Assembly (NCBI GenBank): GCA_027024125.1
Contig: JALVSV010000436.1
Coordinates: 1 to 26,113 of the forward strand
Source of the DNA: Methylothermaceae bacterium
Lineage (GTDB): Bacteria > Pseudomonadota > Gammaproteobacteria > Methylococcales > Methylothermaceae
Reading direction: 5' to 3'
DNA length: 26,113 nucleotides
This document shows positions 966-25,137 of the stretch, one piece after another; the first letter of the stretch is position 1; every line of letters begins with the position of its first letter. Both the position numbers and the translations under genes were made by a program. The notes under the pieces are model-generated. The model was not told the origin of the DNA. It did not search any database and saw nothing but the letters and a program-made list of their open reading frames with translations.

Positions 966-2942
966 TCATTCCACCTCCACGCACCATCCCTCACCCAGGG
1001 GAACTTTGATGGACCTCCCCGTGGTCCCTGACGTATCCAGCCGCTTTAGCAGGGGCAATACAGCAAGTACCGGTGTCCGAAATACCATCTCCTCAAGACC
1101 CTCGGGCAGCCCGACACCGAAATCCTGCACCAGGGCGCCGCACCGTCGGCCCGTATCGCCGGCTTCCAGCACCATTGCCAGAGCCACAGGAAGCGTTCCC
1201 ATGCCAGGCTGCAGATACCCGGGCCAACGCTCATCGTAACAGACCACCAATAGTCTCGGGTTTTCCGTCATCAGCCGGCACCAAGTCTCCAGCCAGGTCA
1301 TGGCCACGGTTTCCCGGGCGGCCCCCATGGCTGTGCTGGCCTGCCTGGATTCGGTGGCGATGCTCCAGTATCCAGCAGCGGTATTGTGGACCGAGTTATG
1401 AAACTGGGTCGGCGAGATCCAACCGTCGGGTTGGGCCAGTTGGATACACAACTGATCGGTCACCTGCATTTCTCCACCCACACTGGCGAAAACCGCAGGC
1501 AACGCCCTGGGATCGATACCGGCGCGCTCACAGGCAGAAAACCCGGCACACAGAGCCAGGCGGGTCGCCTGACTGGTGCGGCGACGGATGGTGGCCGGCA
1601 ATCGGCTGGGGTCGACTGGATCGACATCGATATCAAAATCTTCAGGCAACGCCAGATCGCTGCCACAGACCGCCCATCCCCGCAGGGAAATTCCGGTTGC
1701 CTTGGCACCGCGGCAGGGACTGGAATGAAGGCAGGCGGGCAGGTCGTCACCGGAACGCGCCAACAGCACGCTGGCATTGCTGCCACCAAAACCGAAAGCA
1801 TTGCACAGCGCCAACCTGGCTTCCGTGGGCTCAGGATCCTGGATGACGTTGATGGGACACGACGGATCCAGCCGCTGCAGGCCGCAGGTACCGGGAAGTT
1901 GACCTGCCCGGAGGGACTCCAGTGTGACAATGGCTTCCAGAGCCCCCGAGGCGCCCAGCGTATGGCCGAAAATTCCCTTGACGCCACTGCAGGGAGTATC
2001 GCTGCCTACCACGCTGGCCACTGCCCTGGCTTCCGACAAATCGTTGAGTGGTGTCGCGGTGGCATGTAGATTGACGTAGCCAATCTCGGCAGCGGAAAGG
2101 CCGGCCAGGGTCAAGGCGGAACGCATGGCCTCTTCAGCGCCCCTGCCCCGCGGTTCCGGCGCGGACATGTGGTGAGCATCGGATGACTCTCCCACCGCCA
2201 ACAGGTGGGGGAATCGACGATTGTCGGGGTGAGATCTTTCCAGCAGCAACAGAGCGGCTGCCTCGCCGATATTGATCCCCTGCCGCCCGGCATCCATGGG
2301 CTTGCAGGGGCCTGGCGAAACCAGCTCGAGGCTGTGGAACCCCTGCAGAGTCAAGCGGCACAGCGTATCCACCCCGGCCACCAGGACGGCATCACAAACG
2401 CCTGCCTGAATCAGGCGTTGACCACTTCCAAAGGCCTTGGCGCTGGATGAACAAGCGGTGGAAATGGCGTATACAGGTCCCTTCAGCCCCAGTTCCAAGG
2501 CAAGAAACTGTGCCGTGGCCTGGATCGCATGTTGGTGAAGAAAATCGAATTCCTCTGGCATCCTGCCATGGGTGATGAAATGGGCATAGGCCCGCTCCGA
2601 ATCATAAATACCCGAGGTACTGGTTCCGAGCACCAGACCGATGCGCTCAGAGCCGTAACGGTCAGACAGATGGCCGACCTGGGCCCTGAATTGGCCGGCA
2701 TTCACGGCCAGGAGCGCCAGTCTGGCATTACGGCAGGCATAAGCGGACAGTTCGGAGCGAATGTCCGGAAGCGCACCCGCATATTCCCCCACCAGGGTGT
2801 CGAAAGGCAACTGAAACAGACGGATAGGCGCCAGGCACGGAGTGTTGTCACGTAACGCGATCTTCAGGGCCTGATTACCCCAACCTGCAGAAGTCACGCA
2901 TTGCCAGCCAACGATGGCGACAGGATCTGGACCTGCTCCCAT
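966..2942 (-). CDS. Beta-ketoacyl-ACP synthase fused to a ketosynthase-like (chain-length-factor-type) domain
   Basis: The product is 658 residues. Residues 1 to about 400 form a complete FabF-type ketosynthase: the nucleophile lies in STACSSS (Cys164), and the two catalytic histidines are in HATATPLND (His293) and FGHTLGASG (His327). From about residue 420 a second segment resembles the N-terminal ketosynthase-like domain found as a separate protein in aryl-polyene and type II polyketide clusters. It contains FHNSVHNTAAGYWSIA and a GAARETVAM stretch but no active-site cysteine. The enzyme would extend an aryl-polyene chain on the acyl carrier protein encoded in the same operon. The start ATG is preceded by AAGGA at 5 bases, which sits inside the last codons of the rhodanese gene. 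The downstream gene starts 4 bases after its stop. The fusion of the two domains is the odd feature. Confidence 0.88.
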   Translation of the reverse strand: MGAGPDPVAIVGWQCVTSAGWGNQALKIALRDNTPCLAPIRLFQLPFDTLVGEYAGALPDIRSELSAYACRNARLALLAVNAGQFRAQVGHLSDRYGSERIGLVLGTSTSGIYDSERAYAHFITHGRMPEEFDFLHQHAIQATAQFLALELGLKGPVYAISTACSSSAKAFGSGQRLIQAGVCDAVLVAGVDTLCRLTLQGFHSLELVSPGPCKPMDAGRQGINIGEAAALLLLERSHPDNRRFPHLLAVGESSDAHHMSAPEPRGRGAEEAMRSALTLAGLSAAEIGYVNLHATATPLNDLSEARAVASVVGSDTPCSGVKGIFGHTLGASGALEAIVTLESLRAGQLPGTCGLQRLDPSCPINVIQDPEPTEARLALCNAFGFGGSNASVLLARSGDDLPACLHSSPCRGAKATGISLRGWAVCGSDLALPEDFDIDVDPVDPSRLPATIRRRTSQATRLALCAGFSACERAGIDPRALPAVFASVGGEMQVTDQLCIQLAQPDGWISPTQFHNSVHNTAAGYWSIATESRQASTAMGAARETVAMTWLETWCRLMTENPRLLVVCYDERWPGYLQPGMGTLPVALAMVLEAGDTGRRCGALVQDFGVGLPEGLEEMVFRTPVLAVLPLLKRLDTSGTTGRSIKVPLGEGWCVEVE

Positions 2943-2943
2943 C

Positions 2944-3333
2944 TCAGTCCTTCATTCCCGGTGCCGTCATCACGTATCCCTGATTCCTCCATCGGTGCAT
3001 GTGGCCTTCCAGCAGCCGAACGTCAGGGCACCCAAGTCGGCGCAACTTTGGAGCGGCATAGGCTGCCCTTGGGCCATGCTCACAGGTCACCACGACCATC
3101 TGGTGTTTACAGGCTTCAATCACTTGCGACGGGGCGCTGCTCACATCGAGGAATGGTATATGCACGGCACCGGGGATGTGGCCTTTCATATACTCGGACT
3201 CCGAGCGCACGTCGATGACCAGGGGCGCATCCCCTTTTTCCATCTGGGCACTCAGAGTGGCGGGAGAGACGACAGGCTCTGTACTCGCACATCCGGCCAA
3301 CAATATACTAAGAAACAAGACTCGCTTGATCAT
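2944..3333 (-). CDS. Rhodanese-domain lipoprotein
   Basis: The product is 129 residues. The N-terminus MIKRVLFLSILLAGC has a signal peptide and a good lipobox (LAGC, Cys15), so the protein should be lipid-anchored outside the cytoplasm. The rest is a single rhodanese domain: VIDVRSESEYMKGHIPGAVHIPF (about residues 39-61) contains the DVR and GHIPGA motifs, and the active loop CEHGPRA begins at Cys84. Such domains bind or transfer sulfane sulfur, or act as thiol carriers. An upstream in-frame start at 3393 exists but would bury the signal peptide, so 3333 is preferred. It lies between the exporter gene (72-base gap) and the ketosynthase gene (1 base), so it belongs to the pigment operon. Its job there is unknown to me. 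Confidence 0.82.
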   Translation of the reverse strand: MIKRVLFLSILLAGCASTEPVVSPATLSAQMEKGDAPLVIDVRSESEYMKGHIPGAVHIPFLDVSSAPSQVIEACKHQMVVVTCEHGPRAAYAAPKLRRLGCPDVRLLEGHMHRWRNQGYVMTAPGMKD

Positions 3334-3405
3334 GTTCTTCCACACTAACGGATTTCGGTTCGCACACCGGGTCTTGGATCGTGCTTCTGTCACAGCCGCC
3401 CGGGA

Positions 3406-5721
3406 TCAGGGTCCAGGCCCGCTTTCAGCTGCCCGATCGCCCGGGAGTACCACAGGACATAACAAAAAACCGATGACCACCCCGCCCGTCACGGCAAGAG
3501 ACAGGGCTTTCAGCGCTGGATTGTTCGCCAGGCCCAGAGCGGAGAAGGCCACGACAGTGGTGAACATCGATGCCCCCATGGCACGATAAGTATCGACCGC
3601 ATCTCCAGCGCGTCGTTCAGAATAGAAAATACCGTAATCGACGCAAATTGCAACGGCAAGCATGGCAGCAATGAGATGAAAGAAACTGACCGGTTGGCTG
3701 AGAATCGCAAAACAGGCAAAGACGAACACCAACCCGCTCATCCCTGGCAATAGCACCTTGAAGGATCGGGCCGGTGACCGATACCTGATCAGCAACAATG
3801 CCAGGATGACACCCACTCCCACCCCCAGAGCGAGGAGAGCCCGCCGGCGGTAGGCGATCGCCAAAGCGTTGATTTGTTCCCGCTGACTGTAGTACCTGAC
3901 TCCCAGCTGGTCTGACAACGAAGCTGCTACCGCCTGCGGATCGTGTGGTCCCAGCCATATCGCCAGATGTGTTTTTCGCGGATGCTGTTCCACTTGTCCA
4001 GGCAGGACTTCCTTGACCTGAGAATTCAGGATGGTTTCCGTATCCATCCAGCTCCCTGGCAACTCTCCCGGAACAGTTAACCCCAGGGAGTCGACAGACA
4101 GGCCACTTCGGTTGAGCGCCTCATGCCACGCGCCGACAAACTCGTTGGTGACGTGCTGGGTATAGTGTCCCCAATTTTCCCTTTGCAGCTGCAAAGACAC
4201 CAGCCATGGATAGATGGGATGAAAAGCGCTCAAGGCACCGTTTTCTTTCAACCTTCTAAGGACCCTGGTTGCTTCCTCCCCCCGCTGCAGGGCCGTCTCG
4301 AGATCCGGAGCCTCCACCAGAACCGCCCTTCCCGGCTCGATTCCCCCGAGGCGCTTCCGCAGCTCTGTGTCCTGTTGCTGTAATCTGGCATCGAAACCTG
4401 CCAGCCTTTCCAGATCGTCCAGCCATTGCAAACGGGGCAGTAGCAACAACGCCCCACCCAATGCCAAGCCCAATGCGACCTGCATCAGCCGCTTGTGGGT
4501 GACCAGCCATTGCTGGCAGGAGACGAAGATCCGAAGCGAAGGGGTACCACCCACCACTGGTCCATCCAGCCACATTGGAACCCCATACAAGGTCGTCAGC
4601 AACGCTGTGACGATGCCGGCCGAAGCGAATACCGCAGTCTGCTGAAAACCGGGATATCCGGTCGCCGCCAGGGCGAGGTAGCCGATCACCGTGGTGATCG
4701 CTCCCAGCGACAGGGCGGGCCACAACCTGCCGGCGACTTCCGCCGGTGGCAACTCCCCCCGGCAATGGGCCAACAGGTGAATGGGATAGTCGACACACAC
4801 ACCGATCAGGGTCGCACCCAGGGCCAGGGTCAGGGCATGGAGATTACCGAACACCCACTGAGTTGCCAAAGCCCCAATCGTGCAGGCGAAAGCGAGCACC
4901 AAACCGATGGCAGGCAGCACCTGCCATGAGCGGAACAATACCAGCAACACCCCTGTGACCCCCAACCCGGAAGCGATCGTCACCCGGCTTACATCCTTTT
5001 TGACCCGCTGCTGGGCGGAAACGGCGAATACTGGCACTCCAGTCATTCGCAACTGGTATGTTCCATCCTGACCTTGGTTCAGCCTGGAAAATGTCTGCCT
5101 GATCCTCTGCTGTAAATCCCGCTGCCGCTCGATGTCGAAAGGGGGGTACCGAGCCTCAAGAACGATGGGATAGAAATCCTCAACCCGGGTTGCCATCTTT
5201 CCGAACAAGTCGCGCCAGTCAGAGAAGGCATGAAAGGTCAACAGAAGAGGATCCTTCGGTGCAACCCTCTGCACCAAGTCTCCAAACGGGGACAGCAGGG
5301 CTTTCTTCAAACCTCTGGCCCGCTCGTCCAGGGACTCGATGGCAAAAAGATCCGCCGCCTCGTCTTGTGGGTTCAAACTGTAGATCAAGGGCGCAAATGC
5401 GGCGTATCCAGCCATCAGATCGGGAATTGAAAAGGGAGGCTGAAAGGCGGGCCAGACCGAAGAAACCCCGGGCAGATCTTCCATGGCAGCGATGAAACGA
5501 CGGGAAAATCCAGGCAGATCCGCAGCTGTTCCGGCCTCCGGTTCGATCGCCAGTAGATAGCGGCGGGCAAACACTGTGTGCTGAAAACGCTCCACCATTC
5601 GACTGCCGGGGTCACTTCGTCCGAGAAAGAACACCGACAGCCTGGTTTCCAACTGCAGTTGCCACGCCAGCAACCCCAGCATTCCAGCCAGGACCAGCAA
5701 AATGGCCAAACGCCGTATCAT
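3406..5721 (-). CDS. RND/MMPL-family exporter of the aryl-polyene cluster
   Basis: The product is 771 residues with the two-fold RND layout of small MMPL transporters. There is an N-terminal membrane helix (about residues 4-22), a large periplasmic domain, a block of helices from about 245 to 400, a second periplasmic domain (about 440-630) and a final helix block to the C-terminus. The hydrophobic runs VLLVLFRSWQVLPAIGLVLA and VGVILALLLIRYRSP begin the two helix blocks. Proteins of this kind in aryl-polyene clusters are thought to move the pigment or its lipid conjugate to the outer membrane, with a LolA-like partner. The start overlaps the stop of the upstream LolA-like gene in an ATGA, which indicates translational coupling. 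The substrate is inferred from context only. Confidence 0.88.
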   Translation of the reverse strand: MIRRLAILLVLAGMLGLLAWQLQLETRLSVFFLGRSDPGSRMVERFQHTVFARRYLLAIEPEAGTAADLPGFSRRFIAAMEDLPGVSSVWPAFQPPFSIPDLMAGYAAFAPLIYSLNPQDEAADLFAIESLDERARGLKKALLSPFGDLVQRVAPKDPLLLTFHAFSDWRDLFGKMATRVEDFYPIVLEARYPPFDIERQRDLQQRIRQTFSRLNQGQDGTYQLRMTGVPVFAVSAQQRVKKDVSRVTIASGLGVTGVLLVLFRSWQVLPAIGLVLAFACTIGALATQWVFGNLHALTLALGATLIGVCVDYPIHLLAHCRGELPPAEVAGRLWPALSLGAITTVIGYLALAATGYPGFQQTAVFASAGIVTALLTTLYGVPMWLDGPVVGGTPSLRIFVSCQQWLVTHKRLMQVALGLALGGALLLLPRLQWLDDLERLAGFDARLQQQDTELRKRLGGIEPGRAVLVEAPDLETALQRGEEATRVLRRLKENGALSAFHPIYPWLVSLQLQRENWGHYTQHVTNEFVGAWHEALNRSGLSVDSLGLTVPGELPGSWMDTETILNSQVKEVLPGQVEQHPRKTHLAIWLGPHDPQAVAASLSDQLGVRYYSQREQINALAIAYRRRALLALGVGVGVILALLLIRYRSPARSFKVLLPGMSGLVFVFACFAILSQPVSFFHLIAAMLAVAICVDYGIFYSERRAGDAVDTYRAMGASMFTTVVAFSALGLANNPALKALSLAVTGGVVIGFLLCPVVLPGDRAAESGPGP

Positions 5722-6329
5722 TCCCCCGCAGCTTCCTGAACCAAACGGGCGATGGTATAAGTCAATTTGTCGCCACGCGCATCCAGAACCATCCGGGTAA
5801 CTGACCGGTCCCCATCCCGCTCAACGATTTCGAGCACCTGCCGGTTACCCTCGAGATCCCCATGCATGGAAACTTTCCTGAAGGGTGCCGATTCAGGATC
5901 TTTGGGAAGCAATTGCAGGCTCCAGTTTTTTCCTTCTTCGACATATTCGATGTGATAATGACCGCGAATCGGCTGAAAATTCCCCTGTAATAGCTGCCGA
6001 AGCAACACGATTCCCTCGGCCTGGGGCATGGATGTGGGAAGCCGGATTCGATGTCGCTCGCCGCTTGAGGAATCGAAATAGAGCAACCGGGTAGGCGTGG
6101 CAACCATGATCACCCGCTGGGGTGACAGCTGGAGCTTTACCATGGTTCCAGAAGGATCTGCCAGCAGGTATCCACTACCCTTCCAAGGCTCGGAGAGCAA
6201 CGCCAGGGTCCTGGTTTCCTGATACCGCATTTGCACAGGCTCGCTGAGTTTGAACCGGCCTGCAGGATCGGAGGCCGGAAGCCGAATCCCCCAGAAAAGC
6301 AGACAAATCAGTAGCCCTATTCTTCCCAC
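5718..6329 (-). CDS. LolA-like outer-membrane lipoprotein carrier-related protein
   Basis: The product is 203 residues. The first 20 or so residues (MGRIGLLICLLFWGIRLPAS) look like a Sec signal peptide, so the mature protein is periplasmic. The body has the LolA/LolB-like alternating beta pattern: an early QMRYQETRTLALLSEPWKGSG segment, a repeated PSGTMVKLQLSPQRVIM strand pair and a C-terminal ERDGDRSVTRMVLDARGD strand pair. Homologues in aryl-polyene clusters accompany an MMPL exporter and probably carry a hydrophobic product across the periplasm. The gene overlaps the upstream membrane-protein gene by 13 bases and the downstream exporter gene by 4 bases. Sequence similarity to genuine LolA is weak by eye, so the call leans on context as well. 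Confidence 0.75.
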   Translation of the reverse strand: MGRIGLLICLLFWGIRLPASDPAGRFKLSEPVQMRYQETRTLALLSEPWKGSGYLLADPSGTMVKLQLSPQRVIMVATPTRLLYFDSSSGERHRIRLPTSMPQAEGIVLLRQLLQGNFQPIRGHYHIEYVEEGKNWSLQLLPKDPESAPFRKVSMHGDLEGNRQVLEIVERDGDRSVTRMVLDARGDKLTYTIARLVQEAAGE

Positions 6330-6937
6330 AAACGTCGTCCCTCCCGGGCAACCGCCCGGAAAGTCTCATGAGGAAGAGGCATTTCCCCCAACTCGCTGAA
6401 ACGCCAGCGCCGATAGAAGAATTCCCCCAGCAACAGGGCCGCCATCAGCAGATAGATACCCAGCGCATGGAACCAGAACCAGAACCTGTCGTCACCAGCC
6501 ATGCTCAGCCCCATGGAAACCATGGCCATCACTAAAAACAGCACACACCACACCCAGGTAAGACGGCGTAGATAGACAAGCAGATAGGGAGGGATTTCCC
6601 TATATTGCAAGCGCACCATGCGCTCGATCAAAGGGGGAGGATGAATCATCAGGGTACGGCCAAATTCCCAGGCAACGAACAGAAAAGCCACCGCAGGAAC
6701 CCAGCGGGACACCTTCGGCCCCACCAGTATCACGCCCATCCCAAGCGAGATGCCCAATCCTGCCAGCAACCAGCGCATCTTCCCTTTCGTCCTGGCTGCA
6801 CGCCACAGCAAAATGGTGGCTATGGCAAGGGGAGCATATCCTCCAGCGTTTACATCCAGCCATTGCAGCAAAAAGGGGTAGGTCAGAAACAAAAGCGCGA
6901 CTGCAGTTCCCCACAACCAGCCTGGCACTTCAGGCAT
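6317..6937 (-). CDS. Integral membrane protein of aryl-polyene clusters (COG4648-like)
   Basis: The product is 206 residues with about five or six hydrophobic segments: WLWGTAVALLFLTYPFLL, a second near YAPLAIATILLW, one near LAGLGISLGMGVILVG, then VWCVLFLVMAMVSMGLSM and FHALGIYLLMAALLLGEFFY. It ends with a charged cytoplasmic tail rich in Arg and Glu. An in-frame start at 7027 would lie deep inside the acyl carrier protein gene. The ATG at 6937 overlaps that gene's stop by 8 bases and starts directly before the first helix, so it is preferred. Membrane proteins of this type sit beside the acyl carrier protein in aryl-polyene operons. Their biochemical role is not established. Confidence 0.78.
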   Translation of the reverse strand: MPEVPGWLWGTAVALLFLTYPFLLQWLDVNAGGYAPLAIATILLWRAARTKGKMRWLLAGLGISLGMGVILVGPKVSRWVPAVAFLFVAWEFGRTLMIHPPPLIERMVRLQYREIPPYLLVYLRRLTWVWCVLFLVMAMVSMGLSMAGDDRFWFWFHALGIYLLMAALLLGEFFYRRWRFSELGEMPLPHETFRAVAREGRRLWEE

Positions 6938-7205
6938 TTCTGTTAGTGGCCACGAACTCAGCCAACGACCTGAGAGAAGCGAAGATTTTGGCATTTCTAT
7001 CGTCGTTGGACACCAGCTTGATACCATATTTGCGGTCGAGCATCACCCCGATCTCCAGGGCATCGATGGAATCCAGGCCCAATCCCTCACCAAACAGGGG
7101 GGCTTCCGGATCGATATCCTCAGGAGAGACATCCTCCAGGTGCAATCCCTGGATCAACAGTTGCTTCAGTTCATCAATCATTTCGCTCAAGGGGATCTCC
7201 GCCAT
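6930..7205 (-). CDS. Acyl carrier protein
   Basis: The product is 91 residues. The GLDSIDALE motif carries the serine (Ser46) that would receive the phosphopantetheine arm. It is followed by the acidic recognition helix EIGVMLDRKYGIKL, and the whole length fits a four-helix acyl carrier protein. It would hold the growing polyene chain for the ketosynthase encoded downstream. The gene lies 12 bases after the upstream lipoprotein gene and overlaps the next gene by 8 bases, so it is part of the same transcript. Aryl-polyene clusters usually have two acyl carrier proteins; only one is visible here. Confidence 0.93.
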   Translation of the reverse strand: MAEIPLSEMIDELKQLLIQGLHLEDVSPEDIDPEAPLFGEGLGLDSIDALEIGVMLDRKYGIKLVSNDDRNAKIFASLRSLAEFVATNRNA

Positions 7206-13524: not shown

Positions 13525-16038
13525 TCACTCGCATCTCAAGGCCTCGGCGGGAAGGGTGCGGGCCATCCGCCAGGCCGGATAGACACCCGCTCCCAGCCCT
13601 GCCACCAGCGCCATCAACACACCCTGCAGCAACGGTTGCCACTCCAGGTTGAAGGACAAAGTCCAGCCGAAGGCCCGCTGATGGACCACATGGGTCAGCA
13701 CCCAGCCGATCAGAACCCCCATGGGCACAGCCAACAGGCCCGCCACCCCACCCAGAAGACCGGTCTCCGCCATCACCAGCCGCCACAGTTGTCCCGGCGT
13801 CAGTCCCAGGGCCCGCAGAACCCCAAGCTCATGGGTACGTTCCAACTGTAATGCCAGAAGTGCGCTGAATACTCCGACGAAAGCCACCAGAGTCGCCAGC
13901 CAACGCAGCACAGCGGTCACGGCAAAAGCCTGGTCGAAAATTCCCATGGAAAGTGCCATCAGTTCTCGGTTGTCCGTCATTTCGAGACCCTGACCTGGAA
14001 CAAAAGCCTGGATCTTCTCGATCGCGTTCTCAGGATCGGAGCCCGGCTGCAGATAGATCCAGAATGTGGACACCCCGGAATCGTCCCAATAACGGTCATA
14101 GGTTCTGCGGCTCATGGAGATAATGCCCCGACCGGCGTTATAGTCCACATAGACCGCAGCCACCAGAAATTCCTGGTCACCTTTTGGGGTTGAAAGGCGA
14201 ATCCTCTGGCCTGCGCGGACCCGATTGAGGCGGGCATAGGCTTCGGAAACGATCACCGCCTCCTGGGACTGGAACGCCTGCCAGGGGTCGTCCACCGCCT
14301 GCTCCACCAGTTCGAAGGTGGCAAAGGCAGAGGGGCTGAGATCATAGGCATTGATGCGAACGAAACCCCGGTCGGTCGTCAGACGCAGATAGCGGACACT
14401 CCCAACCCCCGCCACTTCTTCGAGCCGGGCAATGCAGTCGCCCAAAGAGATGTCAAGTTCCGCCCTGCCAGAAGCACCGGAACCAGGCTGATATACGTAG
14501 AGATCTGCATCCAGCCGCCGCTCGAGCCATCCTTCCACCGAATCACGAAAGCTATGCATCATCAGGGTCATACCGATGGTGGTGGCGATAGCCACCATCA
14601 GTGCCGCCGCGGCCACACCGGTCCGGCTCAAGGAGGCGGCAACGGCACGGGGAGGCATTCTCCCGGCCGCCCCCAACAGCAACCCACCCAGCCATTGCAA
14701 CCCTTTCATGATTCCCAAAAGCAGGAACGGCACACACAAGGCCCCTCCTGACACCATCAGAATCAGCGCGGCGAACCCCACCTCAAGGCCCTGGGTCAGC
14801 AGCAAAAACACCAGCCCTGCCAAAAGCAGCGCCACACCAGAGGCAGCCAGCCAGATCCCTGTTCCGGCCACCCGCTGCTCGGCAGCCGAACGGATCAGCA
14901 CTGTCACCGGTTGGACCCTTGCCGCCTCCGATGCAGGTTTCCAGGCTGCAGCCAGCGTGGCTCCCAGCCCCAGCAAAATTGCCTTGCCCAACATCCAGGG
15001 AGACCAGCTCAACCTGGCGTCAGGTAGCGGAAAGTACAGTTGATCCAGCGTCCTGGCCAGCAGCGTCAACATCAACTGACCGAGCAGGATACCGGCCAGC
15101 AGACCAAGAAGGCTACCCGCCAACCCCAGAATCAGCGCTTCCAGCAACACCTGTCTCCTGATCTCCTGCCGGGTCAGCCCCAGAACCCGCAGAATGCCAA
15201 ACAAACGCAGACGCTGTACCACCATGAATCCGACGATATTGAAGATCAAAAAGGCCCCGACCAGCAGAGCCAGCAGACTCAATGCGGTCAGGTTGGTATA
15301 GAAGGCGTCGGTCATTTGCCGCACCGACACGCTTCCAGCCTCACGGCTCGAAAGCTCCACGGTCCCGGGCAATAAAGCCTTAAGTGCCACCAGGTCCTCA
15401 TTGCTCGTTATCATCGCATCGATGGCACTCAAGCGTCCCAGAGTACCCAGCGCCTCCTGGGCAGTCGCCATATCCGCTATCAGAGTGGCCTGTGGGCTCC
15501 GTGCTCCGGTATCCAGCCAGCCAATCAGAATCAAGGCGCGCTCTCTGTCACCCACCCACACCTTGAAGTGATGGCCCGGTACCATCCCCAGGGAATCGCC
15601 GGTTTCCCGATCCAGCAACACCGCTCCAGGCTCCAGCAACAGGCGGCGCCAGACCTCCGGAGGCGCATTTGACTGTTCGAGCCAGGGCGGGGCAAAACGC
15701 AATTCCGCCAGGGGGTCTATTCCCACCAGCTTCAGCCGCTTGCCGCTGCCTTCCACCTCGACATAGCCTTCCAGCACCGGCTTGAGCGCAAAAAAACCCG
15801 CCCGTCGCAGGGTTACATACAGACTGTCGGGCACGCCAAACGGCGAAGAGATTCGATGGGTGGCGCGTCCAAACAGCGTCTCGGTGGCCCGTTCGAAAGA
15901 ACGCAGGGCCCCTGTTTCCGCCAAATCGATGGACACCACCACTGCCACGCCCATCATCACCCCAAACAAGGCCAGCACCCACTGCCAGGGATGGTGCTGA
16001 AGGGTACGGATGTTGGATCGCCAGAGCAGGGTTTTCAT
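13525..16038 (-). CDS. FtsX/MacB-type ABC transporter permease (large, two-domain)
   Basis: The product is 837 residues with the duplicated FtsX layout of AttF/AttG- or YbbP-type permeases. There is an N-terminal helix (about residues 20-42), a periplasmic domain, a three-helix FtsX block at about 245-370 (LALLVGAFLIFNIVGFMVVQ at its start), a middle helix pair at about 395-455 with a further helix near 480, a second periplasmic domain, and a final FtsX block (about 705-830) containing ELGVLRALGLTPGQL. Such permeases work with a LolD/MacB-like ATPase to move lipids or hydrophobic compounds across the envelope. The start overlaps the stop of the ATPase gene by 4 bases (ATGA), so the two form one transporter. 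Substrate unknown; neighbours suggest a modified lipid. Confidence 0.9.
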   Translation of the reverse strand: MKTLLWRSNIRTLQHHPWQWVLALFGVMMGVAVVVSIDLAETGALRSFERATETLFGRATHRISSPFGVPDSLYVTLRRAGFFALKPVLEGYVEVEGSGKRLKLVGIDPLAELRFAPPWLEQSNAPPEVWRRLLLEPGAVLLDRETGDSLGMVPGHHFKVWVGDRERALILIGWLDTGARSPQATLIADMATAQEALGTLGRLSAIDAMITSNEDLVALKALLPGTVELSSREAGSVSVRQMTDAFYTNLTALSLLALLVGAFLIFNIVGFMVVQRLRLFGILRVLGLTRQEIRRQVLLEALILGLAGSLLGLLAGILLGQLMLTLLARTLDQLYFPLPDARLSWSPWMLGKAILLGLGATLAAAWKPASEAARVQPVTVLIRSAAEQRVAGTGIWLAASGVALLLAGLVFLLLTQGLEVGFAALILMVSGGALCVPFLLLGIMKGLQWLGGLLLGAAGRMPPRAVAASLSRTGVAAAALMVAIATTIGMTLMMHSFRDSVEGWLERRLDADLYVYQPGSGASGRAELDISLGDCIARLEEVAGVGSVRYLRLTTDRGFVRINAYDLSPSAFATFELVEQAVDDPWQAFQSQEAVIVSEAYARLNRVRAGQRIRLSTPKGDQEFLVAAVYVDYNAGRGIISMSRRTYDRYWDDSGVSTFWIYLQPGSDPENAIEKIQAFVPGQGLEMTDNRELMALSMGIFDQAFAVTAVLRWLATLVAFVGVFSALLALQLERTHELGVLRALGLTPGQLWRLVMAETGLLGGVAGLLAVPMGVLIGWVLTHVVHQRAFGWTLSFNLEWQPLLQGVLMALVAGLGAGVYPAWRMARTLPAEALRCE

Positions 16039-16715
16039 GGCAGCATCGGTTCAAACCGGCCCCGGCGGATGGCGAGGATCCGGTCCGCCCAACCCACCAC
16101 CTCCTGACTGTGGGTCGCCATGATCAACGTCCTGCCTTTTTCTCTGACCAGTTGATCCAATAGTTGCAACACATCACGCCCGGTCTCAAGATCCAGATTC
16201 CCGGTGGGTTCGTCGGCCAGGATGAGGTCCGGGTCGTGGGCAAGGGCCCTGCCGATAGCCACCCGCTGCTGCTCGCCACCGGACAGACGGTCCGGAAACG
16301 CATCCAGACGTTTTCCCAGTCCAAGCCGTACCATCAGCGCCAGAGAGCGTTTGCGGGAAGATGCATCCAACTGCCCGTTCAATTCGAGTGGCAGCAGTAC
16401 GTTCTCCAACACAGTCAATGTGGGAATGAGGTTGAACTGCTGGAATACAAACCCGATACGACGTCTTCGAAACAGGGTTCTGCCACGTTCCGAAAGTTGA
16501 TTGAGCCGTTGATCACAGACTACCACTTCTCCTTCGTCTGGAACGTCGATCCCGCTGATGAGATTGAGGAGGGTCGATTTCCCGGAGCCGCTGCGGCCAA
16601 GCAGAACCACGAACTCGCCAAGATTCACCTGCAGATCGATGCCCTGAAAGATCCAGTGTCTATGGCCCGCCTCGAGGTAGGATTTGGCGAGCCTTCGTAA
16701 CAGGACTACAGGCAT
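16035..16715 (-). CDS. ABC transporter ATP-binding protein (LolD/MacB/AttE-like)
   Basis: The product is 226 residues. It has a Walker A motif GRSGSGKS (40-47), the Q-loop in FQQFNLIP, the signature LSGGEQQR (144-151), Walker B LILADEP (164-170) and a switch histidine in MATHSQEV. The length and the close linkage to an FtsX permease place it in the LolD/MacB group. Longer in-frame starts up to 16835 run back into the preceding gene; the ATG at 16715 overlaps that gene's end by 10 bases and gives the family's normal N-terminus. It powers the permease encoded next to it. Confidence 0.93.
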   Translation of the reverse strand: MPVVLLRRLAKSYLEAGHRHWIFQGIDLQVNLGEFVVLLGRSGSGKSTLLNLISGIDVPDEGEVVVCDQRLNQLSERGRTLFRRRRIGFVFQQFNLIPTLTVLENVLLPLELNGQLDASSRKRSLALMVRLGLGKRLDAFPDRLSGGEQQRVAIGRALAHDPDLILADEPTGNLDLETGRDVLQLLDQLVREKGRTLIMATHSQEVVGWADRILAIRRGRFEPMLP

Positions 16716-18622
16716 AGGATTCTTTCCCTGATTACGGCACTTGCGAAACGGCGGCCCCATCCAGCCAGCAGATGAATGGTGAAACGCCAACTGGCGGGCG
16801 TCAATGCCTGCCAACCGGTCCATACCCTGCGCCACTGATTTTGGACCGCTGCCTCTCCACCAGGCTCGAACCGTTGCAGATACGCGATGATGGCATCCCT
16901 GGCAAGCGCCGCATGGCCACAGGCCAGGTTGTCTATGGATTGATGGAGCCGCACGATGGTGCTGTCCAGGCCCACAGCTTCCATTCCTTCCGCCAGTTCC
17001 TGATAGTTGTGGCCCAGGCCACTCAGTTCGATGGCCAGATTCAGCCCCAGGATCTCAGGCAGATAATATTCGGGAAAGCGGCCGATGGCGAGCAGGAAGG
17101 CTGGCAGATCGAAGGCACCGGTAACAAAGCCCGGATGGAGTATGAAATCCTCGGAATCGAAAGGGGGAAGATGAACCCCCACCGATTCCAGAAGGCTCCG
17201 ATAGAGGTTGCCGTGATGCCTCGTCATGTCACCGTCACCCAGCTCATCACGCCAGATCCGCCACAACGCCTCCCCTACTTCGGGCAACTGCCTGGCCAGC
17301 GGCAGGCTGGACTGGAGCCAGCTACCGTCCACCAGGATGGCGGGAGCGAACTGTTCGATGCCCCAGATATAGGTCTCACGGGACAGCGACCAACGGTTGC
17401 GCGATGTTGCCCGTTCTCTGCAGGCCTCCTCATGGAGCCGGTCGATATAGGCACGAAAAAGCTTGGGGTGAAAAGAAAAATATCCTTTCCTGAGCCAATG
17501 AGCCCGTCCCAGGATCCTTTCCACCCAGAGTCGTGCAGCCGGGAGGGCGGCGTGAGGATCGATACCGTTGAGTAAACTATGATACAACTCGGGCGGTTTA
17601 AGCCTCCTGGCCGGTCGTGCCACTGGCGGCGTGCCCGATACAGACGGCAGATACCGGGCATCTCCCCGGTCCTGCTGTTCCGGACGGATCTGTTGCTCCA
17701 TGTTGGATGCGTCAGCGGAGGGAGACTGAAACCAGCAGCGCAACAAGGCCTGATCCGATTCGCTGAACACCCCGAACATGGGCCCGCCAAAAGCGGTGGA
17801 GTGGCGCAGGAAACGACTGTCTTCGGGGTGTTGACGATCCACATAGGAAGACTCCCTGAAGCAACGCAGAAAATCTCTTCCTCCCCCCATGGCCAGTTCT
17901 CCCAGCCAGTCGTCCAGGCAGCGACCACCGATCTCGATTTTCCCGTGATATCCCTGGCCATATTTGGCCTTGGACCGAAACATCTCCAAAAGACGCTGTT
18001 CCAGAGGCGTTTCAGCCAGCCACGCCCGGCACCAGCCCAGGGTGCTTCGCCGGTACAATGCCCTGGCGGACATGGCCTGCTTCCAGGCATCACCCCCTTG
18101 GAACCAGTTGGCCAGTAAACGATTGGCCAAAACCAGAGTCCGCCGATAAGACACCGCCCTTTCCAGGGAAAACAGCCCACCGCCCAGTTCGGCATGGGCC
18201 AGCGTGACTCCAACCACCGCGGCTGGGAAACAGGCCCCTTCCTGGGCCAGCGCCAGCAACCAATGGGCATCTTCAGGCAATGGTCCTTCTGCTACTGCCA
18301 TTGAAAAGAACCGCCTGTCACCAAATCCCGACTCTTCAAAGAACACTCTTTGCAGATTGAGCAGTCCTGCTCCCAACCCGGTATGGGCGTTGGTCATCGT
18401 AACCACCCGTTCGAGCCAGCACCCATGGTGCCTTGCCAGAGGCCTGATCCAGACCCGCCATAAGGGGGAAATCCCAGGCTGCTTCAGACTACGTCGAACT
18501 TCGTCAACAGCAGCCTCGACCTCTCTGCCTTCATCTTTCAGCGAAGAGATAAAAAGACGGGTCAGAAGATTCCGCGATTTACCCAGGTTGCATGGAGTCA
18601 GATTGTGGGTTTCAGTGGTCAT
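16706..18622 (-). CDS. Large iron-containing redox enzyme, heme-oxygenase-like fold
   Basis: The product is 638 residues. The C-terminal half (about 410-590) resembles the iron-containing redox enzyme / heme-oxygenase-like diiron oxidase group. The features are IEQFAPAI, DELGDGDMTRHHGNLY (459-474), a helix with LGLNLAIELSGLGHNY (525-540) and SIDNLACGHAALARDAI (562-578). These supply Glu, His and Asp residues placed like iron ligands, but I could not fix which bind metal. The N-terminal half (1 to about 350) is unfamiliar. It contains GVTLAHAELGGGLFSLERA (138-156), which looks a little like the 525-540 helix and could be a duplication, and a GGPMFGVFSESDQALLRCWF segment. Relatives perform O2-dependent N-oxidation, C-C cleavage or desaturation. 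The gene overlaps the carbamoyltransferase gene (ATGA) and the ATPase gene, so it belongs to their pathway. Its substrate is unknown. Confidence 0.68.
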   Translation of the reverse strand: MTTETHNLTPCNLGKSRNLLTRLFISSLKDEGREVEAAVDEVRRSLKQPGISPLWRVWIRPLARHHGCWLERVVTMTNAHTGLGAGLLNLQRVFFEESGFGDRRFFSMAVAEGPLPEDAHWLLALAQEGACFPAAVVGVTLAHAELGGGLFSLERAVSYRRTLVLANRLLANWFQGGDAWKQAMSARALYRRSTLGWCRAWLAETPLEQRLLEMFRSKAKYGQGYHGKIEIGGRCLDDWLGELAMGGGRDFLRCFRESSYVDRQHPEDSRFLRHSTAFGGPMFGVFSESDQALLRCWFQSPSADASNMEQQIRPEQQDRGDARYLPSVSGTPPVARPARRLKPPELYHSLLNGIDPHAALPAARLWVERILGRAHWLRKGYFSFHPKLFRAYIDRLHEEACRERATSRNRWSLSRETYIWGIEQFAPAILVDGSWLQSSLPLARQLPEVGEALWRIWRDELGDGDMTRHHGNLYRSLLESVGVHLPPFDSEDFILHPGFVTGAFDLPAFLLAIGRFPEYYLPEILGLNLAIELSGLGHNYQELAEGMEAVGLDSTIVRLHQSIDNLACGHAALARDAIIAYLQRFEPGGEAAVQNQWRRVWTGWQALTPASWRFTIHLLAGWGRRFASAVIRERILCL

Positions 18623-20358
18623 TTTTTTCTGAAGACATAATCATCGATCACCAGTAGATCCAGCCCTGACGTCATGAAAAGGGCCACCGCGTCCTCTACC
18701 GATTGGACGATGGGTTTGCCCATCCGGTTCAGGCTGGTATTGAGCAGGATTGGCACACCGCTGATGTGGTGGAACGCCTTTAACAGATCATAAAACCTGG
18801 GGTTCCAGTCGCGCCGCACGCTCTGTACTCTGCCGCTGCCATCGGCGTGTACCACGGCAGGCACCTCGCCCGCGGGCATAGATCTGAACATCAAAGCCCG
18901 TTCCATATAGGGTGAAAACTGATAATCGTGGAAATAGCCCTGTCCATACTGGTCCAGTATGGACGGTGCGAAGGGACGGAAGGACTCACGAAACTTGACC
19001 TGGGTATTGATCCGGTCCTTCATCTTTGGGTCCCTGGGATCGGCAAGGATGGAGCGGTTTCCGAGGGCCCTTGGACCGAATTCCGCCCTGCCCTGCATCC
19101 ATCCCACCAGCTTGCCGGAAACCAACGCTTTGGCGACTACCTTGGATAGATCCTCAGAATGATGTTCGACCTGTAATTTTCCATGACGCAACAGGGCCTT
19201 TAGGCGGATCAGATCGATTTCACTTCCAAGATAGGGTGACAGCTGCGCTGTAGGATATCTTTGCCCCGGATGATCCTGGTGCCAGGCAAGCCAGGCAGCC
19301 CCCAGCGCCGTCCCGTCATCGGCCGGCGCACTGGGAACATGCAATTGACTAAAAGGGGTATTTGCCAACAGCTGTCCATTGCAGGCAGAGTTGAGAGCGC
19401 ATCCCCCACCCAGAACCAGATTTTCTGCCGCACAGGCGCTATGAATCGCATGACATAAGGAAATCACCAGTTCAGTGAAATAAAGCTGGCCGGTATGGGC
19501 GATATCCGCGGCTTTCTCCGGCTCATCCCCGGGGCCGCATCCCATTTTGCGAAGGCACGGCAATCCCCGTTGGATGGCGCCGGGATCCTGATGCAGTTCC
19601 AGGCCATCCACCCACATCATTTTTTTCATCAGGGCATAGGCCTCCGGGTCCAGTTTCCCATAGGCGGCCAGCCCCATGACTTTCCACTCTTCCCCCGCCA
19701 GCCAGTCGAACCCGCACAATTCGGTCAGCAGCATATAAAAAAAGCCGAGACTGCTGACCCCCTTGGAGACATGGACCCTGGACAACCGGTTGTTACGGTA
19801 CTTGTAGGCGGCCAGAGATCCCCTTTCGCCAAAGGAGTCGACGATCAGACAGACCGCTTCATCGAATGGTCCGCTGCCACAGGCCAGAGCAGCGTGGCAC
19901 AGATGGTGGTCGAAATGGCGAAATTCCAGCTTCACTTCCGGATAACGTTCGGTTACTCTCCGCACCAGGTTGACGCCTCCGAGGGGCAAAGAGGCATTCT
20001 GACAGGCAAGCATGTGGAACAGTTTGTACTTTTCCAGGAAGGTGGAATAATCCCGGTACCCTGGTGCAATCAGGCCCCGGGGGCTGAAATAGCCCAGCCA
20101 GCGGCTGGTATGTTCATACCAGGGGCGCCTGCCCAACCAGTTGAAGGCGAGCACCCATTCCGCCGAGGGATCACAGTGGCTATCCAGCCAGTCGAGAATA
20201 TGGGACAAGGGATCGGGTGGGCAATTGAGCCCCCGCTTGTACTGCAGACAGCGCTCGGTGGCTTCAGCGAACAGCACCTCACCTGATTCATCCACGATAG
20301 CGATCGCCGGATCGTGATAGGTTACCCCCAAACCGATGTAATACCTGGGCCTCATCAA
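18619..20358 (-). CDS. Carbamoyltransferase, NodU/CmcH family
   Basis: The product is 579 residues, the normal size for the family. The N-terminal domain starts YIGLGVTYHDPAIAIV and carries the DHHLCHAALA metal-site motif (150-159) and GGGCALN (317-323). The C-terminal domain has GRAEFGPRALGNRSILADPR (423-442), FRESFRPFAPSIL and GVPILLNTSLN. These enzymes make carbamoyl-adenylate from carbamoyl phosphate and ATP and pass the carbamoyl group to a hydroxyl of a secondary metabolite or glycolipid, as in nodulation factors, cephamycin and tobramycin-type products. It is the first gene of the leftward operon, and its TGA overlaps the next start. It implies that the operon's product is a carbamate ester. 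The acceptor is unknown. Confidence 0.9.
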   Translation of the reverse strand: MMRPRYYIGLGVTYHDPAIAIVDESGEVLFAEATERCLQYKRGLNCPPDPLSHILDWLDSHCDPSAEWVLAFNWLGRRPWYEHTSRWLGYFSPRGLIAPGYRDYSTFLEKYKLFHMLACQNASLPLGGVNLVRRVTERYPEVKLEFRHFDHHLCHAALACGSGPFDEAVCLIVDSFGERGSLAAYKYRNNRLSRVHVSKGVSSLGFFYMLLTELCGFDWLAGEEWKVMGLAAYGKLDPEAYALMKKMMWVDGLELHQDPGAIQRGLPCLRKMGCGPGDEPEKAADIAHTGQLYFTELVISLCHAIHSACAAENLVLGGGCALNSACNGQLLANTPFSQLHVPSAPADDGTALGAAWLAWHQDHPGQRYPTAQLSPYLGSEIDLIRLKALLRHGKLQVEHHSEDLSKVVAKALVSGKLVGWMQGRAEFGPRALGNRSILADPRDPKMKDRINTQVKFRESFRPFAPSILDQYGQGYFHDYQFSPYMERALMFRSMPAGEVPAVVHADGSGRVQSVRRDWNPRFYDLLKAFHHISGVPILLNTSLNRMGKPIVQSVEDAVALFMTSGLDLLVIDDYVFRKK

Positions 20359-20504
20359 TGCATCCTGTTTTCATGCTAAGCTCATCGACCATGTTACCGC
20401 TAAAATGCAGGAAAACTCACCGCAATAACGCCGGGAACGGAAAGGATGATTCACTTGGCAACCACTGCACCAACCCTGTGCCTTTTCGGTGAAAAAGCAA
20501 ACGT
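20359..20504. promoter_or_regulatory. Divergent control region between carbamoyltransferase and AlkB-like genes
   Basis: These 146 bases must hold promoters for both directions. No convincing promoter pair or operator could be picked out by eye. Confidence 0.35.
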
Positions 20505-21701
20505 ATGAATTTCATGCTGGCCCTCGCCCCCCTGCTCATTCCGGTCTGGAGCACCTGCTTTCTCTTCACAGGCCCCCATCCATGGTGGCAGGCGATCCTG
20601 TGGGTGCTTCCGATGGGATTGCCGGTGCTGGCGGATTTTCTCGGCTGTCGGAGCAGACGACCGAACTGGAGCCCTCCGGCTCCACTGGCTGCGGTGGTGC
20701 TGGGCGGGATCGCGGGGCTGTTCATCGCCGACCTGTGGCTGCTGCTGGAGATGAGTACCCAGTGGCAGTGGAAACCAGGCAAAGGCCTGATGGACACCCT
20801 TGTGGACCTGATGGCTGTCAAGTTGCTACTGGGCAGCAACGGCGCCCATTCGAGCCTCCTGGTCGGTCACGAGCTGGTCCATCGACAGGCCTGGATTCCC
20901 AGAGGATTGGGAAGATTGCTGCTCACCCTGAGCTGTTACCATCATTTTGCCATTGAGCACATCCACGGCCATCATCGCCGGGTAGGTCGGGTGGAAGACC
21001 CGGCGACTGCCCGCCTGGGGGAATCCTATAACACCTTCTGGTGGCGGTCGGTCACAGGACAGTTCAAAAGCGCCTGGCAACTGGAAAACAGGAGACTGCG
21101 GGCAGTTGCCACGGGAAGGGAGCGTATCCTCAGAAACCAAGTGTTACACGGAGTATTGGCCGAAACCGGCTTGATCATGTGCATCGCCTGGATTTTCGGT
21201 CCTGCCGCCCTGCTGGCCTATGCGATCCAGACTGTGATGGCGATTCGTAATCTGGAGGCGATCAACTACATCCAGCACTGGGGACTGAGCCGGGGAGACA
21301 GGGCACCTGACGCCCGCGACGCCTGGTATACCGACACCTGGTGCTCTACCCACCTGCTGCTGGGCCTGGTCCACCATGCCCATCACCACCGTCAACCAGC
21401 GATCCCCTACCCACGGTTGAGGTCTCTTCCCGGCAGCCCCAGGATGCCCTATGGTTATTTCACCCTGATGTTTATGATCGCCTACCGCAATCCGCGTTTT
21501 CAGGCCCTGGCCACGGCCGAACTGCAAAGGCTCGGTCTCGGCCCATTCTCCAACTCAGATCATCACCATCCCCACCATCAGATACATTCCCAGGGCAAGA
21601 CCTGCCCCCAGCAGGGCATAGGGGAACTGATGGCGGATGTGGTCGATGGGTTCGACCCCGGCCGACAGGGAAGCGATCATGGTGGTGTCGGACACCGGTG
21701 A
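20505..21701 (+). CDS. AlkB-type membrane di-iron hydroxylase/desaturase
   Basis: The product is 398 residues. Several transmembrane segments alternate with the histidine boxes of the alkane hydroxylase / xylene monooxygenase group: HELVH (122-126), EHIHGHH (151-157), NYIQHWG (254-260) and HHAHHH (290-295). The family hydroxylates terminal carbons of alkyl chains or related substrates at the inner membrane, drawing electrons from a rubredoxin or ferredoxin. It is transcribed divergently from the carbamoyltransferase, 146 bases away, so a shared control region is likely. The last 49 codons, from about residue 350, overlap the antiporter gene on the other strand and encode an odd His/Gly-rich tail (SDHHHPHHQIHSQG). 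That part may be non-functional. Whether it is a true alkane hydroxylase or acts on a pathway intermediate is open. Confidence 0.85.
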   Translation: MNFMLALAPLLIPVWSTCFLFTGPHPWWQAILWVLPMGLPVLADFLGCRSRRPNWSPPAPLAAVVLGGIAGLFIADLWLLLEMSTQWQWKPGKGLMDTLVDLMAVKLLLGSNGAHSSLLVGHELVHRQAWIPRGLGRLLLTLSCYHHFAIEHIHGHHRRVGRVEDPATARLGESYNTFWWRSVTGQFKSAWQLENRRLRAVATGRERILRNQVLHGVLAETGLIMCIAWIFGPAALLAYAIQTVMAIRNLEAINYIQHWGLSRGDRAPDARDAWYTDTWCSTHLLLGLVHHAHHHRQPAIPYPRLRSLPGSPRMPYGYFTLMFMIAYRNPRFQALATAELQRLGLGPFSNSDHHHPHHQIHSQGKTCPQQGIGELMADVVDGFDPGRQGSDHGGVGHR

Positions 21702-23153: not shown

Positions 23154-23885
23154 TCATTCGATTCCCACGACCAGGCCTTCCTCCACCCAGCGGTGCAACC
23201 ACTGGGCTACCTGATGCGCAGCGTCGGTAGAAAGATCCTGTCCGGCCAGATCTGCGCACACTTCGGCGAACGCTGTTCCGGACTTGATAAGGCGCAGGGT
23301 ATGCGCCTCAGGCCCGTCCATGGAACGGAAGAAACAACGCAGCCTGTGGCGCCACACCATCCAGCTGACAGGTTCCGGCTGATCCGTACAGTCTGGAGGG
23401 GAAACCTGATCCTGGAGCGCCTTCCATACTTTGGGAACGGAAGTGCGCAAAGTCAGAAGCGACAGCCCCGGAGCCAGGACGAAACTCAAATGGGGCCAGT
23501 CCTGTGGCGGAATCGCGGCAAGGGTGTCAGGCCCGATGGGTTCTGCATCGGTGCAGTCGAAAGCCAGGCTCAAGGACCATTCGAAGGCAGCCATCTCGGC
23601 CCACTCCAAAGGCCCGGTGCGTTGTAGAAATTCAGGAAGATGCCTTCCTATCCAACGGATGGAAAAATGTCTTGAAGGGTGAGTGGTCAGATAGCCTGCA
23701 GCCAGCTCATGGAACCTGTCCCTACCCAACCATCGCGACAGCATCGGATAGTCAACGGCCAGGGCCTCTACCAGACGCTGGCGGTAGGCGTTGCGATAGA
23801 TCTCAAGCCCCGGAAGGGAAAGATCGGTCTCTGCCATAACGGCAGACTGGATTCTGGCCTGCAGATTGGCCAAATCCTTACTCAT
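23154..23885 (-). CDS. bufC: BufC-like DUF2063 protein, bufferin maturation partner
   Basis: The product is 243 residues. The N-terminal DUF2063 domain shows [19 protein letters not shown], then [26 protein letters not shown], which is typical of this family's helical opening. A small winged-helix-like C-terminal part follows (about residues 165-240). DUF2063 proteins are partners of MNIO enzymes and help bind the RiPP precursor during cysteine modification. The start at 23885 overlaps the stop of bufB in an ATGA, so the two are translated together. An in-frame start 5 codons upstream is also possible. It is the last gene of the bufferin operon. Confidence 0.88.
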
Positions 23886-24733
23886 GCAGCTTCCTGCCAA
23901 AAAGGACCGGCAATCCGCCTGGCCTGGTCCAACTCTTGCAACAATGCGTCAAGGGGAGGTATCCGGTCGTCACGTTCTATCATCGTCGCCACCGGGCCGA
24001 AATGGCGCGCAGCCTCACGGTAGAGGTCCCAGACTTCGTTACGGATGGGATGATCGTGGGTGTCGATGACCCACTGACCATGTTCTGTGTGTCCTGCCAG
24101 ATGGAATTGCCATACTTTGTCACTGGGCATGGCCAGCAGATATTCCGATGGATCGAAACCGTGATTGCGGGCACTGACATAGATGTTGTTGATGTCGAGC
24201 AGAATCAGACAGTCGGCGCGTTTGGCCACTTCAGTCAGAAACGTCCATTCAGACATTTGCGACTCTGGATAACTCATATAGCTGGAAACGTTTTCCAGCA
24301 GGATGCGCCTCTCCAGAAAGTCCTGCACCTGCCGTACCCGAGACACCACATGAGACAGGGCCTCTTCGGTATAAGGCAGTGGCAGTAGATCGTGGAGATT
24401 GATGCCACCCACTCCGGTCCAGCACAGGTGGTCGGAGACCCACAAGGGCCGAACCCGGTCGATCAGTGACTTCAGGAGGCCGAGATATTGGAAATCAAGG
24501 GGGTGGGTACCGCCGATCGACAACGATACCCCGTGCATGACCATGGGATATTCCGCACGGATCCGGTCCAGATAGTACAGCGGCTTGCCGCCTTCAACGA
24601 GGTAATTTTCGGTAAGAATCTCGAACCAGTCCACCGCTGGCCTTTCCGCCAGGACAGCTTCATAGTGTTCCTTGCGCAAGCCCAACCCGAAACCCGGGAA
24701 TGGTCGCTCGATAAAATCTGACACGGACGGCAC
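23882..24733 (-). CDS. bufB: MNIO (DUF692) iron-dependent oxidase, bufferin maturase
   Basis: The product is 283 residues, the usual length of the DUF692/MNIO family. The TIM-barrel signature segments are visible: [15 protein letters not shown] at the N-terminus, [74 protein letters not shown] and DTHDHPI. These hold the His, Glu and Asp ligands of the multinuclear iron site. The enzyme modifies precursor cysteines, in studied bufferins to 5-thiooxazoles. It starts at a GTG at 24733 with AGAGG upstream, 38 bases after the precursor gene, and overlaps bufC. Confidence 0.93.
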
Positions 24734-24771
24734 CGCTGGCCCGCCTCTTCACAGCTACGGGCCCAAAACAT

Positions 24772-25137
24772 TTACATCTGCGGCTTGATCACCTTGCCAC
24801 CCTGGGCCTCACAATCCTTGAGACTGACATAGAGATAGCCCTGTCCCTTGCATTGATTCAATCCTTTGCAGGCATTGTTGGGTGTGGCACATTCAGACTG
24901 ACCCTTACAGGCATTGATGCCGAAACAGGCCACTTTGACTTCGGTCGCCTGTTTCGAAGACTCCTGGGCCTGGGATTTCATTCCCTCCATCATGCCCATA
25001 CCTTGCTTGGATGCCTGCTCTGGGGACTCTTTCGCTGCCTTGTCGGCCTGGTCCTGCTGATTGGTGCAACCGGCGCTGAATATGGCTGCCGCCGCTGTAG
25101 CCAGTACGACGCCCCTGGACAAATTCACTTTGCTCAT
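24772..25137 (-). CDS. bufA: Bufferin-type RiPP precursor (BufA2-like), cysteine-rich
   Basis: The product is 121 residues. An N-terminal export signal (about 1-23) ends in SAGC (Cys24), which resembles a lipobox. A Lys/Gln/Glu-rich spacer follows (25-68), then a core with six cysteines at 71, 77, 83, 90, 96 and 109. The core has the repeated pattern ACKG...C: ACFGINACKG, SECATPNNACKG, QCKGQGY and a final KDCEAQGGK. That pattern is the same as in bufferin precursors, whose modified cysteines bind copper outside the cytoplasm. It is the first gene of a precursor, MNIO, DUF2063 operon. The identity as a bufferin is strong from both core and context; lipidation is inferred and unusual. The preceding 101 bases presumably hold a metal- or stress-responsive promoter, but none was recognised. 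Confidence 0.87.
   Translation of the reverse strand: MSKVNLSRGVVLATAAAAIFSAGCTNQQDQADKAAKESPEQASKQGMGMMEGMKSQAQESSKQATEVKVACFGINACKGQSECATPNNACKGLNQCKGQGYLYVSLKDCEAQGGKVIKPQM

Follow-up and report, generated by a model that had tools for sequence, protein, structure and literature searches.

A carbamoyltransferase, a haem-oxygenase-like di-iron oxidase and an AlkB-like hydroxylase recur together in methanotrophs of the order Methylococcales

Introduction

Carbamoyltransferases of the NodU/CmcH/TobZ type are built from two domains, PF02543 and PF16861, and those of the NodU type carbamoylate sugars. RohS, HrmI and SznF belong to the haem-oxygenase-like di-iron family PF14518, and AlkB alkane 1-monooxygenases carry PF00487 and a set of histidines that would bind the metal. 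ABC export sets of the AttEFGH, LolCDE and MacB type combine an ATPase, an FtsX permease and a CrtC/AttH-type lipocalin.

Members of all these families lie side by side in a stretch of 26,113 nucleotides, referred to here as the window, from a Methylothermaceae bacterium whose genome encodes PmoA (contig JALVSV010000436.1, assembly GCA_027024125.1). The carbamoyltransferase (CarbT), the di-iron oxidase (HDO) and the AlkB-like hydroxylase make up what appears to be an undescribed enzyme set, near all-or-none in its distribution and carried almost as a unit by many methanotrophs. Among the papers listed by a search of open-licence PMC text, with subscription journals mostly outside it, none describes the trio. 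What is reported below on the genes, on their co-occurrence and adjacency, on the conservation of candidate catalytic residues, on the fold and on the exporter lying apart from the trio in relatives was established by computation.

The locus and its genes

CarbT (18619–20358, minus strand) starts with TTG, with an alternative ATG at 20355. It is followed on the same strand by HDO (16706–18622), an ABC ATPase (PF00005; 16035–16715) and an FtsX/MacB-type permease in which FtsX occurs twice together with MacB_PCD (13525–16038). Successive genes overlap by 4 bases (18619–18622), 10 bases (16706–16715) and 4 bases (16035–16038), and the ATG start of the ATPase sits within a longer ORF opening at 16835. 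The AlkB-like gene (20505–21701) lies on the plus strand, 146 bases from the TTG start of CarbT or 149 from the ATG. ORF coordinates thus bear out the positions, strands, overlaps and gap given in the original prediction, and a Pfam search agrees with its family names for the five genes. The range that it delimited contains all five, but omits two plus-strand genes that accompany the exporter in relatives, a CrtC/AttH-type lipocalin (PF07143 and PF17186; 10939–12051) and a RoxA-like c-type cytochrome (PF21419 and PF00034; 11970–13442). The cytochrome is convergent with FtsX, and its real start is probably downstream of 11970. CarbT, HDO and AlkB are termed module A; the ATPase, FtsX, the lipocalin and, in the window's genus, the cytochrome are termed module B.

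Other genes surround the two modules. The last 147 bases of the AlkB ORF (21555–21701) also belong to a convergent Na+/H+ antiporter-type ORF, and locus L022 shows a similar overlap. On the minus strand at 966–7027, inspection by eye picks out double ketosynthase-like and rhodanese-like genes, an RND/MMPL-type exporter, a LolA-like gene and a small membrane protein, which we take to resemble part of an aryl-polyene-type cluster running off the left edge; these same genes come after the cassette in G008 (L022). Also on the minus strand, at 23154–25137, a small Cys-bearing lipoprotein-like peptide (24772–25137) is followed by genes at 23882–24733 and 23154–23900, presumably DUF692/MNIO and DUF2063, respectively, in what we take to resemble a bufferin-type RiPP operon. 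G008 and G003 have it too.

The three enzymes

Both CarbT domains score above the Pfam cut-off, and the protein aligns to the novobiocin carbamoyltransferase 9s2t and to GdmN over residues 142–577 and to TobZ over residues 275–577. The NCBIfam NodU equivalog cut-off is not reached (143.9 of 1000 bits). CarbT shares its two domains with NodU, CmcH and TobZ but forms a separate orthologous group, with 48–78% identity among the matches listed in Methylococcales. A second CarbT copy (family f2; L134, L135) and the CarbT of L154 (G861) directly adjoin a B12-binding radical SAM protein, all of whose scores fall far under the HpnJ and HpnR cut-offs, a distant similarity only. Orthologues of CarbT in L127, L128 and L129 have no adjoining HDO or AlkB.

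HDO consists of two tandem halves, the N-terminal half being a degenerate copy and the C-terminal half, with the PF14518 domain at residues 423–601, holding the candidate catalytic residues. E460, H470, E523, E532, H560, D564 and H570 are invariant in all 40 HDOs compared and, counted from sequence, would suffice for a 3H/3C or 3H/4C ligand set. The sequence found no relative among solved structures, giving one chance-level match (E 0.58). Its structure model has a haem-oxygenase-like fold and the closest folds are N-oxygenases: Foldseek alone returned no match at E ≤0.001, the best being HrmI at 1.8e-3, and a second comparison gave a clear match to the N-oxygenase fold. Such a match of a predicted structure by itself establishes no function for HDO. 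Identity to RohS, HrmI and SznF is 13–16%, and HDO differs from them in its added degenerate N-terminal half and in having a carbamoyltransferase as partner. D564 and H570 are separated by six residues, as against three in characterised members of the family. Proteins of about 740 residues from Penicillium (P0054, P0055, P0057) contain the HDO half with the same invariant residues.

The AlkB-like protein contains PF00487 (E 1.1e-24), matches the alkane 1-monooxygenase 8sbb (E 2.3e-29) and aligns also to 8f6t. It has the histidine ligand set of a membrane di-iron site, in common with AlkB alkane 1-monooxygenases: among nine candidate ligands, assigned with the help of the 8sbb alignment, H122, H126, H152, H156, H157 and H258 occur in 100% of 96 cassette copies (duplicates included) and H291, H294 and H295 in 99% of the same copies. 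Where alkane monooxygenases have the motif HYG, the window protein has NYxxHWG, and unlike them it sits with CarbT and HDO. In a tree with 30 other AlkBs, both cassette arrangements fall on one side of a 100/99 branch and 25 of the others on the opposite side. The remaining five (P0214 and P0239, with Methylococcales names, and P0184, P0196 and P0204, which carry none) group among the cassette proteins, so the cassette label needs six changes on the tree.

Conservation of the trio

The original prediction had named conserved co-occurrence in distant genera as the support to look for, and this is found for CarbT, HDO and AlkB. Among 201 Methylococcales genomes, profiled with E cut-offs of 1e-100 for CarbT and 1e-60 for HDO and AlkB, the genes occur in 76, 77 and 76 genomes, respectively. 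All three are present in 71, two in 7, one in 2 and none in 121, so that 80 genomes have any and only 9 have a partial set. Fisher tests of co-occurrence give p from 1e-45 to 1e-48, but these ignore relatedness and the counts therefore weigh more. The trio recurs, beyond chance, in relatives of several families. It is retained at genome sizes of about 1.5 Mb (G934) and 1.7 Mb (G914), and the Texas strain of Methylococcus capsulatus carries it (L212). Named relatives of the window HDO include Methylohalobius, Methylothermus and Methylomarinovum. In L213, from a symbiont of Bathymodiolus platifrons, the HDO matches next to CarbT are scattered over several frames, a sign that the copy may be decayed or mis-assembled.

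The genes are also physically close. HDO matched in 30 of the 61 relatives initially compared, and in the 30 regions fetched tblastn places CarbT beside HDO in 29 and AlkB in 27. CarbT and HDO lie within 1.4 kb of each other in 68 of 73 genomes with both; in the five where they are split, AlkB shares a contig with HDO in three (G861, G881, G903) and with CarbT in two (G812, G847). AlkB is alone on a contig in G002, G817 and G831, and on a different contig from HDO in G819, G827 and G851. A wider survey, drawn from the best 80 of 126 relatives and from hand-picked loci, gave 133 loci, or 108 distinct HDO loci after merging at >97% identity, of which 91 are from Methylococcales. AlkB lies on the CarbT–HDO strand in 39 of the 91 (by title Crenothrix, Methyloglobulus, Methyloprofundus and others) and on the opposite strand in 35, the window included (Methylococcus, Methylocaldum, Methylothermaceae and others). 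In the remaining 17, either CarbT is missing within 3 kb or AlkB within 4 kb, and seven of these loci are at contig edges; L178, L182, L183 and L203 have HDO and AlkB with CarbT absent from the stretch. That adjacency survives rearrangement of the AlkB strand is good evidence of a shared function, and CarbT, HDO and AlkB very probably belong to one pathway.

Outside the order, HDO has relatives under record titles that include Dyella, Rhizobiaceae, Aestuariivirga, Acetobacteraceae, Alcanivoracaceae and Coxiellaceae, many of these labels being titles of metagenome-assembled genomes that are possibly mis-binned. A carbamoyltransferase lies within 3 kb of HDO in 10 of 17 distinct loci of this kind, with 36% identity to CarbT in the one case measured (G125), and AlkB was not found in the stretches around these HDO genes. 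HDO–CarbT is thus a wider pair, to which AlkB looks like a methanotroph addition. In a sample of 369 genomes of the class, CarbT is matched at E 1e-60 in 58, comprising the window, G012, two members of family f36 (49–50% identity) and 54 others at 34–42%. The HDO–CarbT pair of G088, titled Chromatiales bacterium USCg_Taylor (L216/L082), lacks AlkB and adjoins a dynamin-family gene and a PQQ methanol/ethanol-type dehydrogenase (TIGR03075, above cut-off); the HDO of L208 has related neighbours.

The exporter

The original prediction placed the ATPase and permease in the pathway as exporter of its product, and the overlaps of 4, 10 and 4 bases do suggest a single transcript in the window. Comparison speaks against this membership. 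Among the 108 distinct loci listed, the window alone has FtsX within 4 kb of HDO, and three (the window, L038 and L165) have an ATPase match at such a distance. Homologues of FtsX occur in 17 of 61 relatives (E 1e-40), and in the 15 loci that were fetched the ATPase adjoins FtsX in 14 and the lipocalin is near in 10. The RoxA-like cytochrome adjoins FtsX in three of the 15, all from the window's genus and in the same convergent arrangement. FtsX and CarbT are on different contigs in four relatives from that genus (G005, G007, G004, G002), with the cytochrome and lipocalin beside FtsX in three of the four, although the assembly is good enough to give this separation weight in G005 alone. There, trio and exporter occupy separate large contigs and the exporter retains its cytochrome and lipocalin. 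The closest relative, G008, has the trio, a different sequence downstream of HDO and no FtsX match at E 1e-40. In G050 the exporter is present with its lipocalin, and no trio gene is.

Genome-wide, an exporter homologue is present in 15 of 30 HDO carriers as against 2 of 31 other genomes, an excess for which either a looser link or kinship may account. G054 and G039, which belong to one genus, have the ATPase on the HDO strand at distances of 7.5 and 8.9 kb. These figures favour one pathway of five genes whose product the ABC exporter exports, but with FtsX found near HDO nowhere else in the listed loci, and elsewhere in relatives, we regard that arrangement as very unlikely and set it aside. 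The exporter is in all likelihood a gene module separate from the trio. Its permease falls under the NCBIfam cut-offs for lolCE (60.9 of 362.45 bits) and MacB (41.2 of 966 bits). Module B resembles AttEFGH, LolCDE and MacB-type sets in its ATPase, permease and lipocalin and differs from them in having one duplicated permease and, in the window's genus, the added cytochrome.

A possible pathway and its alternatives

The window may well comprise two side-by-side modules, A being a three-enzyme pathway to a carbamoylated, N-oxygenated, lipid-like compound and B a separate exporter, a reading to which we give slightly less than an even chance. The chemistry set out here, the order of the steps, and the identity and lipid nature of the substrate are inferred. 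On a substrate that is membrane-bound or lipid-like, AlkB would hydroxylate an unactivated aliphatic carbon. CarbT would form carbamoyl-adenylate from carbamoyl phosphate and ATP and use it to carbamoylate a hydroxyl, or an N-hydroxyl, of the substrate. HDO, as an N-oxygenase-like di-iron enzyme, would oxidise a nitrogen, either that of the carbamate or an amine on the same molecule. Module B (ATPase, FtsX, cytochrome and lipocalin), which follows HDO in the window, would be a separate exporter set. Membrane hydroxylation, carbamoyl transfer and nitrogen oxidation together suggest a lipid-like product with a modified nitrogen-bearing head. The original prediction likewise proposed a carbamoylated, oxidised, lipid-like product, and suggested that genome-mining tools built on core enzymes may miss the set; we surmise the lipid character from the AlkB-type membrane enzyme. 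We hold a carbamoylated, N-oxygenated, lipid-like product of the trio to be possible, and only tentatively favour it; that it represents a methanotroph membrane lipid of a new class, its hydroxylated chain bearing an N-hydroxy-carbamate or a hydroxyurea as head group, would be a long shot.

The trio might instead decorate hopanoid side chains, with AlkB as the side-chain hydroxylase (aminotetrol, aminopentol) and CarbT and HDO making carbamate-type C-35 head groups. PMC12583986 reports carbamoyl-BHPs in Enhydrobacter aerosaccus and describes the genes for BHpentol and BHhexol as unknown, and PMC5100885 gives tentative identifications of methylcarbamate-BHPs in type I methanotrophs, including Methylomarinovum, which has HDO. 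The latter paper has M. capsulatus without MC-pentol, yet the Texas strain has the trio. Hopene cyclase (TIGR01507) was sought in 80 chosen genomes. It is present in all four Methylococcales trio carriers tested and in 3 of 5 carriers of CarbT orthologues outside the order, as against 6 of 65 other genomes there, and G014 and G015, the two order genomes tested that lack the cyclase, lack the trio too, but G009, G016, G022 and G029 (four of four tested) have the cyclase and no trio. In the two remaining carriers outside the order, G788 and G651, whose CarbT orthologues show 45 and 50% identity, the cyclase has no match, so that CarbT orthologues are not confined to hopene-cyclase genomes and an explanation by hopanoids only is rejected. 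No hopanoid gene is among the recurrent neighbours of the cassette, judged by position and translation, and a role in hopanoid decoration is on balance unlikely.

Modification of a surface glycan or lipopolysaccharide, with CarbT acting on a sugar as NodU-type enzymes do and the oxidases on neighbouring groups, seems highly improbable. In two Rhizobiaceae loci HDO is near a GDSL hydrolase (L222) and genes that by eye look like heptose-kinase, epimerase and glycosyltransferase genes, but both lack CarbT in the stretch, no glycan gene family recurs beside 31 methanotroph-side cassettes (neighbours judged without Pfam), and an AlkB-type enzyme has no obvious role on sugars. It is also quite unlikely that HDO acts like UndA, cleaving a fatty acid, and with AlkB and CarbT yields a volatile or carbamoylated alkenol rather than an N-oxygenated compound.

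Outlook

The near all-or-none distribution of the trio across the genomes sampled, and its retention in the small ones, suggest a product of importance to many methane oxidisers. Lipids of methanotrophs serve as biomarkers of methane oxidation, and the genes for some bacteriohopanepolyols remain unknown, according to PMC12583986. If the trio did make a new class of membrane lipid and its precursor were an amino-hopanoid, the AlkB-type enzyme would be a candidate for the missing side-chain hydroxylase. A defined target of three genes makes the question of the product testable in Methylococcus capsulatus.
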